Assembly: GCF_000661915.1 (NCBI RefSeq)
Contig: NZ_CP007509.1
Location: forward strand, 2,621,501 to 2,685,500
DNA length: 64,000 bases
Direction: 5' to 3'
From: Stutzerimonas decontaminans
Lineage (GTDB): Bacteria > Pseudomonadota > Gammaproteobacteria > Pseudomonadales > Pseudomonadaceae
A program made the translations under genes and the position numbers. Positions 29,763 through 33,456 of this stretch are shown here, piece after piece. The notes under the pieces were generated by a model. It made no database searches. It was given only the letters and a program-made list of their open reading frames with translations, and had not been told where the DNA came from. Each line of letters opens with the position of its first letter. The first letter of the stretch is position 1.

Positions 29763-30914
29763 ATGCATGACCTCGAACTCAGCGAAGACCAACGCATGAT
29801 CCGCGACATGGCGCGCGACTTCGCCCGCCGCGAGATCGCTCCTCATGCACAGGCCTGGGAAAAGGCCGGCTGGATCGATGACGCCCTGGTCGCCCAGATG
29901 GGCGAGCTTGGCCTGCTCGGCATGGTCGTCCCGGAAGAATGGGGCGGCAGCTATATCGACTACGTCGCCTACGCGCTGGCCGTGGAGGAAATCTCCGCCG
30001 GCGACGGCGCCACCGGCGCGCTGATGAGCATCCATAACTCGGTGGGCTGCGGCCCGGTGTTGAATTACGGCTCGCAGGCGCAGAAGGACGAATGGCTGGC
30101 GGAACTGGCCAGCGGTCGCGCCATCGGCTGCTTCGCCCTCACCGAACCGCAGGCCGGCTCCGAGGCGCACAACCTGCGCACCCGCGCCGAACTGGTGGAC
30201 GGCCAGTGGGTACTAAATGGCAGCAAACAGTTCTGCAGCAACGCGAAACGAGCGAAGCTGGCCATCGTTTTCGCGGTGACCGATCCGGACCTCGGCAAGA
30301 AGGGTCTTTCCGCCTTTCTGGTGCCTACCGACGCCCCGGGTTTTGCGGTGGAGCGCAGCGAACACAAGATGGGCATCCGCGCCTCCGACACCTGCGCGGT
30401 ATCGCTCAGCGACTGCAGAATCCCCCAGGCCAATCTGCTTGGCGAGCGCGGCAAGGGCCTGGCAATTGCGCTGTCGAACCTCGAAGGCGGGCGTATCGGC
30501 ATCGGCGCACAAGCCCTGGGTATCGCCCGTGCGGCCTTCGAAGCCGCCCTGCTCTACGCCCGCGAGCGGGTCCAGTTCGGCAAGCCGATCGCCGAGCACC
30601 AGAGCATCGCCAACATGCTCGCCGACATGCAGACCCAGCTGAATGCGGCGCGTCTGCTGATTCTGCATGCCGCGCGGCTGAAGAGCGCCGGCCTGCCGTG
30701 CCTGTCCGAAGCCTCCCAGGCCAAGCTGTTCGCCTCGGAAATGGCGGAAAAGGTCTGCTCGCAGGCGGTGCAGATCCACGGCGGCTACGGCTATCTCGAG
30801 GATTATCCGGTCGAGCGTTATTACCGCGATGCCCGTATCACGCAGATCTACGAGGGCTCGAGCGAGATCCAGCGCCTGCTGATCGCACGGGAGCTGGCGA
30901 ACTACGCACTGTAA
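29763..30914 (+). CDS. Acyl-CoA dehydrogenase (probable isobutyryl-CoA dehydrogenase)
   Basis: A 383-residue FAD-dependent acyl-CoA dehydrogenase. It shows [20 protein letters not shown], the FAD/substrate region [15 protein letters not shown], the [20 protein letters not shown] segment and the catalytic-base region [18 protein letters not shown]. As last gene of the mmsA-mmsB operon it most likely oxidises isobutyryl-CoA to methacrylyl-CoA. Substrate choice cannot be proven from sequence. Confidence 0.88.
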
Positions 30915-30929
30915 GCTCACTTCGTACTG

Positions 30930-30969
30930 GGCGAATGCCGTGCTGCGATCTGACAGCTCGGCATTCGCC
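30930..30969. terminator. Long hairpin at the end of the valine operon
   Basis: GGCGAATGCCG (30930-30940) and CGGCATTCGCC (30959-30969) form a perfect 11-base stem 15 bases after the stop codon. The run of T after it is poor (GTGTTTTCC about ten bases on). It lies between the rightward valine operon and the leftward small RNA and may insulate the two. Confidence 0.5.
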
Positions 30970-31073
30970 ATAGAGGCGTGTTTTCCCGCGGCAGCGCCAG
31001 CCAGACATGTATCCAAGCCGACTCAACGACACACAAACAACGCCTGACAAACCGGCTGCTGTTATCCGGGCCC

Positions 31074-31102
31074 AAATAAAAAGGGGAGCCGCTAGGCTCC
31101 CC
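31074..31102 (-). terminator. Rho-independent terminator of the CrcY/CrcZ-like RNA
   Basis: On the minus strand GGGGAGCC-TAGC-GGCTCCCC is followed by TTTTTATTT. It is a perfect 8-base GC-rich stem with a four-base loop and a T run, the strongest terminator in this part of the window. Confidence 0.9.
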
Positions 31103-31439
31103 TTCAGGGCGTGTTGCTTTGTTCTTCTTCTGCTGACGGGCTTGTTGTTTTTGTTGGCAGCCCGGTCGGACATCGTCCGAGTAGCAGTCCCATAAGGGAC
31201 ATAAAGAACAAACGGATTATTTTGGTCGCTGATGTTGCCACTACCCTCACGGGCTCAACCGGTTCTGGAGCTGCCTCAAGGCAGTTTTATTGTTCTCGGT
31301 CCGGTCGACAGGAAACCTGTCGGGCAATTCCTCTCCAAAAGAATCAGTTTGCTACGTCTCCCACCTGCTTGTTTTTATTGTGTCGGAGTCGCTACGTGTT
31401 GTTCTTGTTATTGGGTGTGCTTTCTTGTTTTTGTTGTGC
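31074..31439 (-). ncRNA. crcY: CrcZ/CrcY-type small RNA (Crc/Hfq decoy)
   Basis: No frame here looks coding. The minus strand reads as a roughly 365-base RNA that starts about 12 bases after a sigma-54 promoter and ends at a strong terminator. It carries six A-rich motifs of the AAnAAnAA type: CACAACAAAAACAAG (31424-31438), AATAACAAGAACAACAC (31397-31413), CACAATAAAAACAAG (31368-31382), GAGAACAATAAAACTG (31282-31297), CCAACAAAAACAACAAG (31141-31157) and GAAGAACAAAGCAAC (31111-31128). In Pseudomonas, CrcZ and CrcY use such motifs to sequester Hfq/Crc and relieve catabolite repression. CrcZ is defined by its place after cbrB; cbrAB is not here, so CrcY is the better name. The exact 5' end is inferred. 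Confidence 0.85.
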
Positions 31440-31448
31440 CGCTAATAA

Positions 31449-31464
31449 AGCATTTTCCGTGCCA
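31449..31464 (-). promoter_or_regulatory. Sigma-54 promoter of the CrcY-like RNA
   Basis: TGGCACGGAAAATGCT on the minus strand has the invariant GG (-24) and GC (-12) exactly ten bases apart and a near-consensus TGGCACG. The start site is expected near 31439. Confidence 0.8.
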
Positions 31465-31560
31465 TGTTTTGTAAAACCTTATTTTTCAATGAGTTACTGA
31501 TTTCCTAGCGCTGTAAATTGTCGTCTCAGCGCTGGATTCGTTACCGCGCGCCTCAGCGCC

Positions 31561-31586
31561 CGTTACGCTGTACAAAGGAAGTAACA
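31561..31586 (-). promoter_or_regulatory. CbrB-like upstream activating site
   Basis: TGTTAC, 14 bases, then GTAACG lies about 100-120 bases upstream of the sigma-54 promoter, a normal distance for an enhancer-binding protein. It fits the TGTTAC-N14-GTAACA pattern I recall for CbrB. Further GTTAC/GTAAC half-sites flank it (GGGTTACCC at 31592-31600, GGTAACG at 31539-31545). Confidence 0.6.
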
Positions 31587-31674
31587 CCTTTGGGTAACCC
31601 TGCCATGATCTTTGCGATACGCAGCGGCAGCCACGGGCAGGCGATATGAGGCTGTGCACGATGCCCCAATGCAA

Positions 31675-31707
31675 GACACCCCGGCAGTGATTCACTGTCA
31701 GGGTGTC
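31675..31707 (-). terminator. Hairpin after the small membrane protein gene
   Basis: GACACCC and GGGTGTC enclose an inner CAGTGA/TCACTG palindrome, giving a long interrupted hairpin 54 bases downstream of the minus-strand gene ending at 31761. Only a short TT follows, so termination is possible but not certain. Confidence 0.4.
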
Positions 31708-31760
31708 GATCGCTCTATCGGCATAGGTAGGTTCTTCGGCTGGTTAGCGCCTGGGTCGTA

Positions 31761-31979
31761 TCAGGCGTCTGCTGTCTGCACAGCAGTTTCCTTGCGTCTG
31801 GCCAGGTAATCGCAGACGACGATGGCCAGTAATGGAACGAGACCGACATTGAGAGCAACATGCCAGGATCCAATGAGGGCCACGAAGAGCATTCCCACGA
31901 CCACGATCGCGGCAACACAGTGAGCCAGGAAACGGCACAGTTCGAGTGCAACTACTTGTTGTTCGGCATGATTATTCAT
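31761..31979 (-). CDS. Small two-helix membrane protein, unknown function
   Basis: A 72-residue protein with two membrane helices (FLAHCVAAIVVVGMLFVALI and ALNVGLVPLLAIVVCDYLA) and a charged C-terminus. The ATG at 31979 is chosen because GGGGAG precedes it; longer in-frame starts would run through the promoter. I do not recognise a family. Its leader has a CA motif directly before the ribosome site, and the gene lies just upstream of the CrcY-like RNA on the same strand, so it is probably under catabolite control. Confidence 0.6.
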   Translation of the reverse strand: MNNHAEQQVVALELCRFLAHCVAAIVVVGMLFVALIGSWHVALNVGLVPLLAIVVCDYLARRKETAVQTADA

Positions 31980-31993
31980 GACGTTTGACTCCC

Positions 31994-32006
31994 CGTTTTT
32001 GTTGTA
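31994..32006 (-). promoter_or_regulatory. CA motif in the leader of the small membrane protein
   Basis: ACAACAAAAACGG on the minus strand lies immediately before GGGGAG, the ribosome site of the gene starting at 31979. It resembles the motifs of the adjacent small RNA. Confidence 0.55.
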
Positions 32007-32024
32007 ATAAGCAGCCTCGTTTTC

Positions 32025-32052
32025 ATAGTAGTCCGCTGGCATAAAGTCGCAA
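32025..32052 (-). promoter_or_regulatory. Candidate sigma-70 promoter of the small membrane protein
   Basis: TTGCGA, 16 bases, then TACTAT on the minus strand, about 45 bases upstream of the start codon. Confidence 0.4.
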
Positions 32053-32299
32053 CCTGAACCGACGTGCGGCACGTCTAGCCTGCGTATTACAGGCTATACA
32101 CGACTTTGGTCGATAACGTGGCATTACTTCGAACAGGGCGCTGACATAAGCGTTATATATTGTGGAATCGATTTCTTGACTGCATGTCCAATAAAAGCGC
32201 GCGCCGAACCGTTATAAATTAGATGACTCACAAACCTGCCATGCACTCGGCCAAATTGATCAGAATATCTTCCCTTCGAAGCCGCCTTCGGTAGCTCGC
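32053..32299. other. Non-coding stretch, AT-richer than surroundings
   Basis: No reading frame in this stretch looks coding. It follows the end of the racemase gene and is noticeably richer in A and T than its neighbours. I see no clear terminator or repeat here. Confidence 0.5.
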
Positions 32300-33382
32300 T
32301 CAATCCCAACCGGCGTCTGAACTGCAGCGCAAGGTCCGCCTGGCTTTGCCTGGTGTACGCGAAAAGCGCGGGGCCGGCGCCACTTGCACGATGCCATCGA
32401 GGTCCTGATAGACACCGCGCTGACGCAGATGCGGATGCTGCGCCGCCTCGGCCAACTCGAGCACCGGTGCGAAACAGGCATCGCTGCCCTCCAGCAGGGC
32501 GCACCACTCGGCCTGGGTACGGGTAGCGAACAAGCGCTCCAGCAGCTCGGCCTGTGCTGGCCATTCAGCCGGATCGGCACACCCCACCCAGAGCCCTTCC
32601 GGCGCATCGATGCGCTCCAGCAATTCTCGCCAGAACTGCGGCTCCAGCGGGCCTATGGCAATCTCGCGGCCATCCGCGCAGCGATAGCATCGATAGTTAG
32701 GTGCTGCACCGGCCAGCGGATTACGGTCGCGCTGCATGTCGATCCGTCCGCTCGGCAGCAGACCGGCAAAGAAGGTCATCAGCGACGACACGCCATCGAC
32801 GATCGCCGCATCGATCACCTGGCCCTGGCCGGAGCGCTCGCGCTCCCATAACGCGGCGAGGATGCCGACCGCGAGATACAACGAGCCGCCGCCGAAATCG
32901 CCAACCAGGTTCAACGGCGGTATCGCGGTTCCGCTCTCGCCACGGATTGCCGCCAGCGCACCGGTCAGTGCGATGTAGTTGATATCGTGACCAGCCGCCT
33001 TGGCCAGCGGGCCGGTCTGGCCCCAACCGGTCATGCGTCCGTAGATCAGTTTCCGATTGCGCTGCAGCAGCTCCTCCGGCCCGAGCCCCAGCCTTTCCAT
33101 CACGCCTGGCCGATAACCCTCGATCAGCACATCGGCGGTCTGCGCCAGCTCAAGGCAGCGCGCACGCCCTGCTTCGCTGCGGATATCCAGCGTCAGCGTC
33201 TTGCGCCCACGATCGACCACAGGGTTCGGCCAGCCGTTACCACCCTCGCGTTCGATGCGCAGCACTTCGGCGCCCATGTCTGCCAACAGCATCGCGCAGT
33301 GCGGCCCTGGGCCGATCCCGGCAAACTCCAGCACGCGCAGGCCGCACAGCGGTCCGCTACGGGCATCGTCGTGTTCGTTCAT
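32300..33382 (-). CDS. Alpha-methylacyl-CoA racemase (CaiB/BaiF family)
   Basis: A 360-residue CaiB/BaiF-superfamily protein with the length and motifs of alpha-methylacyl-CoA racemase: VLEFAGIGPGPHCAMLLADM, ADVLIEGYRPGVMERLGLGP, MTGWGQTGPLAKAAGHDINY (catalytic His region) and NLVGDFGGGSLYLA (catalytic Asp region). It interconverts R and S forms of 2-methyl-branched acyl-CoAs. The ATG at 33382 follows CTAGGAGATTTGCC. It is the last gene of the leftward operon; for isoleucine breakdown it would let the dehydrogenase use both epimers of 2-methylbutyryl-CoA. Confidence 0.88.
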   Translation of the reverse strand: MNEHDDARSGPLCGLRVLEFAGIGPGPHCAMLLADMGAEVLRIEREGGNGWPNPVVDRGRKTLTLDIRSEAGRARCLELAQTADVLIEGYRPGVMERLGLGPEELLQRNRKLIYGRMTGWGQTGPLAKAAGHDINYIALTGALAAIRGESGTAIPPLNLVGDFGGGSLYLAVGILAALWERERSGQGQVIDAAIVDGVSSLMTFFAGLLPSGRIDMQRDRNPLAGAAPNYRCYRCADGREIAIGPLEPQFWRELLERIDAPEGLWVGCADPAEWPAQAELLERLFATRTQAEWCALLEGSDACFAPVLELAEAAQHPHLRQRGVYQDLDGIVQVAPAPRFSRTPGKARRTLRCSSDAGWD

Positions 33383-33456
33383 GGCAAATCTCCTAGATTC
33401 ACACGCACGCAGACGCGCCCCGCACCGAAGCACGGAGCGCGTATGGGTAACAGGCG

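Follow-up and report, generated by a model that had tools for sequence, protein, structure and literature searches.

The 64-kb stretch of DNA analyzed here (the window) carries on its minus strand what its sequence identifies, with near certainty, as a second CrcZ-family decoy RNA: a crcY-type copy and an ordinary member of a known family. What is novel lies outside the window, in a promoter and AANAANAA-rich stretch found downstream of cbrB in other families. We consider it very probable that a cbrA-cbrB-decoy RNA-pcnB module is ancient and order-wide. In dozens of other families, including that of Marinobacter, a sigma-54-driven, CbrB-site-controlled, AANAANAA-rich RNA would lie downstream of cbrB, often beyond the reach of the Rfam CrcZ model, and would probably act by titrating Hfq in those families as well, whether or not Crc takes part.

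To identify the window gene, we searched the DNA against Rfam. Across the 64 kb no family but CrcZ (RF01675) exceeded its threshold, and the CrcZ covariance model matched the minus strand from 31437 to 31048 end to end (model positions 1-398 of 398). We place the full-length RNA, of about 363 nt, at 31437-31075 (254.9 bits against a cut-off of 95), with its start set from the promoter and the Rfam match. The predicted fold is stable (-115.4 kcal/mol, z = -5.0), and none of 100 shuffles folded to as low an energy. A preliminary description of this DNA had proposed a CrcZ/CrcY-type RNA on this strand, with an Rfam search as the check. That proposal is borne out by the covariance model together with the sigma-54 promoter and CbrB-type sites described below. 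Its further expectation, that automated annotation would leave the region empty or call spurious proteins, was too strong: a default Rfam search detects the gene, and an Rfam-based annotation would not necessarily miss it.

Upstream of the RNA, at 31464-31448 on the minus strand and where the preliminary description had put a GG-N10-GC promoter, lies the sigma-54 promoter TGGCACGGAAAATGCTT (GG-N10-GC, -24/-12). It is the single match to TGGCACRNNNNWTGCWW on either strand of the window, with 0.05 expected and one match in 5 of 100 shuffles. Further upstream is a CbrB-type activating sequence (31586-31539, minus strand) made up of F1 (TGTTAC, 31586-31581), R1 (GTAACG, 31566-31561) and R2 (GTAACG, 31544-31539). 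The TGTTAC-N14-GTAACG pair at 31586-31561 had been recognized before, but the third site had been overlooked. Nowhere else in the window does the triple GTTAC-N14-GTAAC-N17-GTAAC occur, nor did it arise in any of 100 shuffles. Both patterns were composed after the site had been seen, so the chance figures for promoter and enhancer are flattering, and conservation serves as the independent test. A TGGCAY-N6-TGC promoter and F1 are kept in all 27 Stutzerimonas crcY copies and the full CbrB triple in 23, the remaining four being without one GTAAC site. The same F1-R1-R2-promoter order is found in crcZ of the same genome. Between enhancer and promoter there is no exact IHF consensus, the best site having one mismatch. 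In P. putida, crcZ and crcY are documented to have an F1/R1/R2 architecture, to be helped by IHF and to depend on sigma-54 (PMC6296734, PMC8871633). The window gene has both its own sigma-54 promoter and the upstream CbrB F1-R1-R2 subsites that are features of the CrcZ family, as read from the DNA.

Six non-overlapping AANAANAA motifs lie within the 363 nt, as had been noted for about 365 bases; the shuffle mean is 0.64, and none of 2000 shuffles reached six. The densest 365-nt stretch on the minus strand of the window holds six such motifs, and the plus strand reaches at most two. The 5' group (31435-31369) has non-overlapping starts at 31435, 31412 and 31379, with overlapping repeats to 31369, and mean probabilities of being unpaired of 0.98, 0.81 and 0.98. 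For the central and 3' motifs (31294-31119), with starts at 31294, 31155 and 31129, the corresponding values are 0.99, 1.00 and 0.53. In the minimum-energy fold five of the six are wholly unpaired; most of the sixth is paired in that fold, and its mean unpaired probability across the ensemble is about one half. These accessibilities come from the predicted fold of one sequence. The strong terminator reported earlier is also present, as an 11-pair stem followed by a T-run at 31105-31080 (minus strand). A scan of 30900-31800 gave 4 terminator-like sites against 1.5 in shuffles. Like the CrcZ family, the gene is non-coding and has an intrinsic terminator.

At E <= 0.001 the genome contains two CrcZ-family places. 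The other one (L001; G000:C1:3593510-3593899) lies between cbrB and pcnB, so it is crcZ, and the window gene, whose RNA is about 64% identical to it, is an additional, crcY-type copy. This rules out the window gene as the cbrB-linked crcZ. Of the regulators, we located cbrB and crc in the genome; the crc gene adjoins pyrE, and the closest matches of its product are the Crc structures of P. aeruginosa. The window gene is flanked by an acyl-CoA dehydrogenase gene that converges on it (29763-30914, plus strand; Pfam acyl-CoA dehydrogenase domains) and, upstream, by a class III CoA-transferase gene of CaiB type (32300-33433, minus strand; PF02515). Plus-strand neighbors encode an enoyl-CoA hydratase, a 3-hydroxyisobutyrate dehydrogenase, a 3-hydroxyisobutyryl-CoA hydrolase and the acyl-CoA dehydrogenase; minus-strand neighbors encode the CoA-transferase, an AMP-binding CoA ligase and a second acyl-CoA dehydrogenase. 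Between the CaiB-type gene and crcY, a predicted 103-aa protein (31761-32072, minus strand) has no NCBIfam or Pfam match and is matched in 25 of 27 crcY loci.

To determine how crcY is distributed, we searched 56 Stutzerimonas genomes. All 56 have a CrcZ-family match, and 27 have crcY sequence at the same site, with at least one of the same neighbor genes at each locus. The 27 copies score 233.8-255.6 bits against the covariance model and carry five to seven AANAANAA motifs each. A pattern common to the window RNA and its relatives matches S. kunmingensis, S. chloritidismutans, S. frequens, S. degradans, P. songnenensis and others. We did not find crcY in the other 29 of the 56 genomes (two of the 56 are less than 75% complete, one of them a non-carrier), which implies that it is dispensable beside crcZ. 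In 19 of the 29 non-carriers the acyl-CoA dehydrogenase gene is followed directly, on the same strand, by a gene for a 76-78% identical CoA ligase; the others are without such a ligase. A CbrB tree, read without branch supports, covers 54 of the 56 genomes (all but G032 and G037). It unites 24 carriers in a single clade, and two more carriers (G003 and G014) stand apart beside a non-carrier. Two genomes, G002 (L099) and G013 (L100), have a shorter second RNA of about 320 nt at a different place; the former lies between antiporter-like and lipase-like genes, judged from reading translations. At the crcZ locus of G032 (L178), pcnB is in place and no CbrB match lies within 1.5 kb upstream of crcZ, unlike at the other 54 Stutzerimonas crcZ loci checked.

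In a 91-sequence RNA tree the 17 Stutzerimonas crcY copies used (of 27), the window copy among them, and all 11 RNAs taken from g10, the genus to which P. oryzagri belongs and which we take to be Geopseudomonas, form one clade with support 1.00. Stutzerimonas crcZ falls outside it. Second copies of genera g12, g15, g16 and g17, from which the window copy stands apart, form a different clade (support 0.91). In g6 and g14, second copies cluster with the crcZ found in the same genus. The second RNAs of G002 and G013 fall elsewhere again, in a placement that differs from an earlier tree built without the crcY copies. The alignment is short and support uneven, and the crcY genes of P. putida and A. 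vinelandii were not themselves placed, so that orthology across genera is made less probable rather than excluded. Taken together, these groupings make it probable that crcY is not one orthologous gene but had several origins or underwent gene conversion. The earlier designation of the window gene as the CrcY copy holds in the sense of a second copy not linked to cbrB, but is not supported in the sense of orthology with the second copies of other genera. Within g10 (L062-L071), seven of eight genomes have three to five CrcZ-family matches and the eighth has two; the 11 RNAs in the tree come from three g10 genomes, and their falling into one clade points to recent duplication or gene conversion.

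Could the window gene be something other than a decoy RNA? Open reading frames of 62-129 aa are listed on the two strands of this region, for example 31111-31500 on the plus strand (129 aa). However, when the window copy was compared pairwise with 16 orthologues (17 of the 27 copies in all), 62 of 66 internal indels were not multiples of three, a count in which inherited indels recur, and open lengths scattered in every frame across the 17 copies. The absence of a coding frame, already remarked upon in the preliminary description, is thereby upheld. The frame-breaking indels rule out a coding reading of 31111-31500 and similar frames, and we regard a protein-coding region on either strand as vanishingly improbable. 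Alternatively, crcY might be a silent or decaying duplicate of crcZ, unexpressed or no longer binding Hfq and Crc. Its patchy occurrence (not found in 29 of 56 genomes, all of which have a CrcZ-family match), its approximately 64% identity to crcZ and the loss of one CbrB subsite in 4 of 27 copies would fit such decay. Against this, promoter, F1 and five to seven AANAANAA motifs persist in all 27 copies although some of the RNAs are only 76% identical, covariance-model scores remain at 233.8-255.6 bits, and transcripts of a CrcY are known from P. stutzeri A1501 (PMC6606865). We therefore judge a decaying duplicate to be highly unlikely.

A specialized small RNA serving the adjoining acyl-CoA/CoA-ligase cluster, for instance as an antisense to the acyl-CoA dehydrogenase gene, rather than a general decoy, is also very unlikely, despite a conserved setting. 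All 27 Stutzerimonas copies adjoin genes of the cluster, as do two g10 copies, one in each of two genomes (L065 and L067; G126 and G064), which lie next to a CaiB-type gene and a CoA ligase, and crcY is convergent with the dehydrogenase gene. Yet the terminator, at 31080, falls about 166 bases short of the dehydrogenase end at 30914; because it lies outside that gene, no antisense overlap is predicted, which rules out an antisense role on the dehydrogenase. Moreover, the motif content is the same as that of crcZ, and second copies in other genera are without these neighbors or have only distant homologues of them.

As a CrcZ-family decoy, the window RNA would, by analogy with its relatives, be expressed, depend on CbrB and RpoN, and titrate Hfq and Crc. 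When carbon supply is poor, CbrB and sigma-54 RNA polymerase, perhaps helped by IHF, would transcribe crcY from its own promoter, and the RNA would end at the intrinsic terminator. Its unpaired, A-rich AANAANAA stretches would bind Hfq, with Crc, and this titration would free catabolic mRNAs from translational repression. Unlike crcZ, crcY could not receive read-through from cbrB, since it lies away from that gene. In A. vinelandii, expression of crcY and crcZ requires CbrA, and CrcZ binds Hfq/Crc (PMC5429807). In an rpoN mutant of that species CrcY falls, whereas CrcZ rises 9-fold, part of crcZ transcription being read-through from cbrB (PMC6292655). This rise implies that the level of a CrcZ-family RNA need not, by itself, follow RpoN. 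In P. stutzeri A1501, CrcZ and CrcY belong to a set of 17 ncRNAs that respond to nitrogen in the transcriptome, and the majority of the set is down in ntrC or rpoN mutants (PMC6606865). The CrcY of A1501, which was seen in that transcriptome, is like the window gene a second CrcZ-family RNA of this genus, and the two genes are presumably the same. With expression of both RNAs already on record for A1501, the window gene is a routine addition.

Relative to CrcZ, CrcY and CrcX of Pseudomonas and Azotobacter (RF01675), the window gene is alike in length, model fit, A-rich Hfq/Crc motifs, sigma-54 promoter, three CbrB subsites and terminator. It differs in sitting within an acyl-CoA gene cluster, and its RNA falls with those of the P. 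oryzagri genus, apart from the second copies of g12, g15, g16 and g17. RsmX, RsmY and RsmZ bind Rsm proteins through GGA motifs, whereas RNAs of the window type would act on Hfq/Crc, and the activator also differs. The analogy drawn between the Gac/Rsm and Crc decoys is that several RNAs titrate one translational repressor (PMC8871633).

A review states that CbrAB and its synteny are unique to Pseudomonadaceae, and regards this confinement as a likely reason for the versatility of the family and a clue to the origin of CbrA (PMC8871633). To see whether the module extends further, we searched genomes across the order. Of 115 genomes, 23 had a match to the Rfam CrcZ model: four Pseudomonadaceae and 19 of the 111 outside genomes, three of the 19 scoring above the cut-off. 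We fetched 12 of the outside loci. Ten have cbrB upstream (64-69% identical) and pcnB downstream, and the remaining two, at or near a contig end, have pcnB only. All 12 have a TGGCAC-N6-TGC promoter with at least one of TGTTAC and GTAACA upstream. In the four outside loci compared with a genome of the Marinobacter genus, the CbrA encoded upstream is 45-49% identical to the protein of that genome. CbrB itself matched in 150 of 194 genomes of the order (E <= 1e-130), eight of them Pseudomonadaceae, and the CbrB of G261, apparently Marinobacter panjinensis, is 96% identical to that of the query genome of the same genus.

We then screened the DNA downstream of cbrB. From the 142 CbrB-matching genomes outside Pseudomonadaceae we took 100, chosen to cover families and without looking at the RNA except for six genomes already known to have an Rfam match; one region was too short, leaving 99. 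The screened loci are 20 of L225-L252 plus L253-L332. A promoter with three or more non-overlapping AANAANAA motifs in the 280 nt after it was present in 69 of the 99 regions and in 33 of 41 outside families, and the same pattern on the reverse strand in none of the 99. The three-motif threshold was chosen after the table had been seen; at thresholds of 2, 3, 4 and 5 motifs, 77, 69, 48 and 33 of the 99 regions qualified, and at every one of these thresholds the reverse strand gave none of 99. At four motifs, the one threshold at which shuffles were run, the comparison was 48 of 99 regions with 0 of 1980 shuffles. In 586,030 strand-bases of other fetched DNA, two motifs were reached at 16 places, and a comparison of positions by hand puts every one of these on a CrcZ-family RNA known from the earlier searches.

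Other features of the module accompany the pattern. Within 180 nt upstream of the promoter, TGTTAC and GTAACA are both present in 55 of the 69 regions, compared with 0.5% of shuffles, and pcnB lies downstream in 59. A terminator-like hairpin follows the stretch in 30 regions (0.8 expected from base shuffles), and a simple scan found none in the other 39. The pattern was missing from 30 of the 99 regions and from 8 of the 41 families (f5, f8, f9, f10, f18, f39, f42 and f43, all below three motifs); f5, f8, f10, f18, f42 and f43 had no promoter match in any region examined. In f8 (G177; L113, L239) a CrcZ-like RNA adjoins pcnB, and cbrB lies on another contig without such an RNA downstream, so that the module seems to be split there. 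Spacing also varies. In f2 and f34 (L102-L107), TGTTAC lies at -170 and GTAACA at about -149 and -116, with the promoter at -27; in Pseudomonadaceae crcZ the CbrB-type sites are nearer, at about -150, -130 and -108, with the promoter likewise at -27.

The protein partner outside Pseudomonadaceae is harder to assign. Crc matched in 138 of 194 genomes of the order (E <= 1e-60), eight of them Pseudomonadaceae, and the outside proteins are 38-53% identical among the matches listed. A Neisseria-type exonuclease (2jc5, which we take to be the Neisserial exonuclease) also scores well against Crc. Given these identities and that score, the matches do not tell Crc from exonuclease III outside Pseudomonadaceae.

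These results suggest that many bacterial families share a gene arrangement which they are said to lack. CbrB outside Pseudomonadaceae has not gone wholly unseen, since one public record gives the name CbrB to a protein of Marinobacter antarcticus and cbrAB transcripts are reported in a marine metatranscriptome (PMC5073097). In a search that covered few subscription journals, we found no literature linking CrcZ with Marinobacter or Oceanospirillales.

The window gene itself is one more copy of a well-studied family, and the doubtful orthology of crcY and the order-wide module weigh more. The RNA tree is a warning that crcY-named genes of different genera may be independent duplicates. If the module is indeed order-wide, the argument from confinement to Pseudomonadaceae would fall, the Rfam CrcZ family should be widened, and Hfq titration by a CbrB-driven RNA would become testable in marine genera such as Marinobacter.
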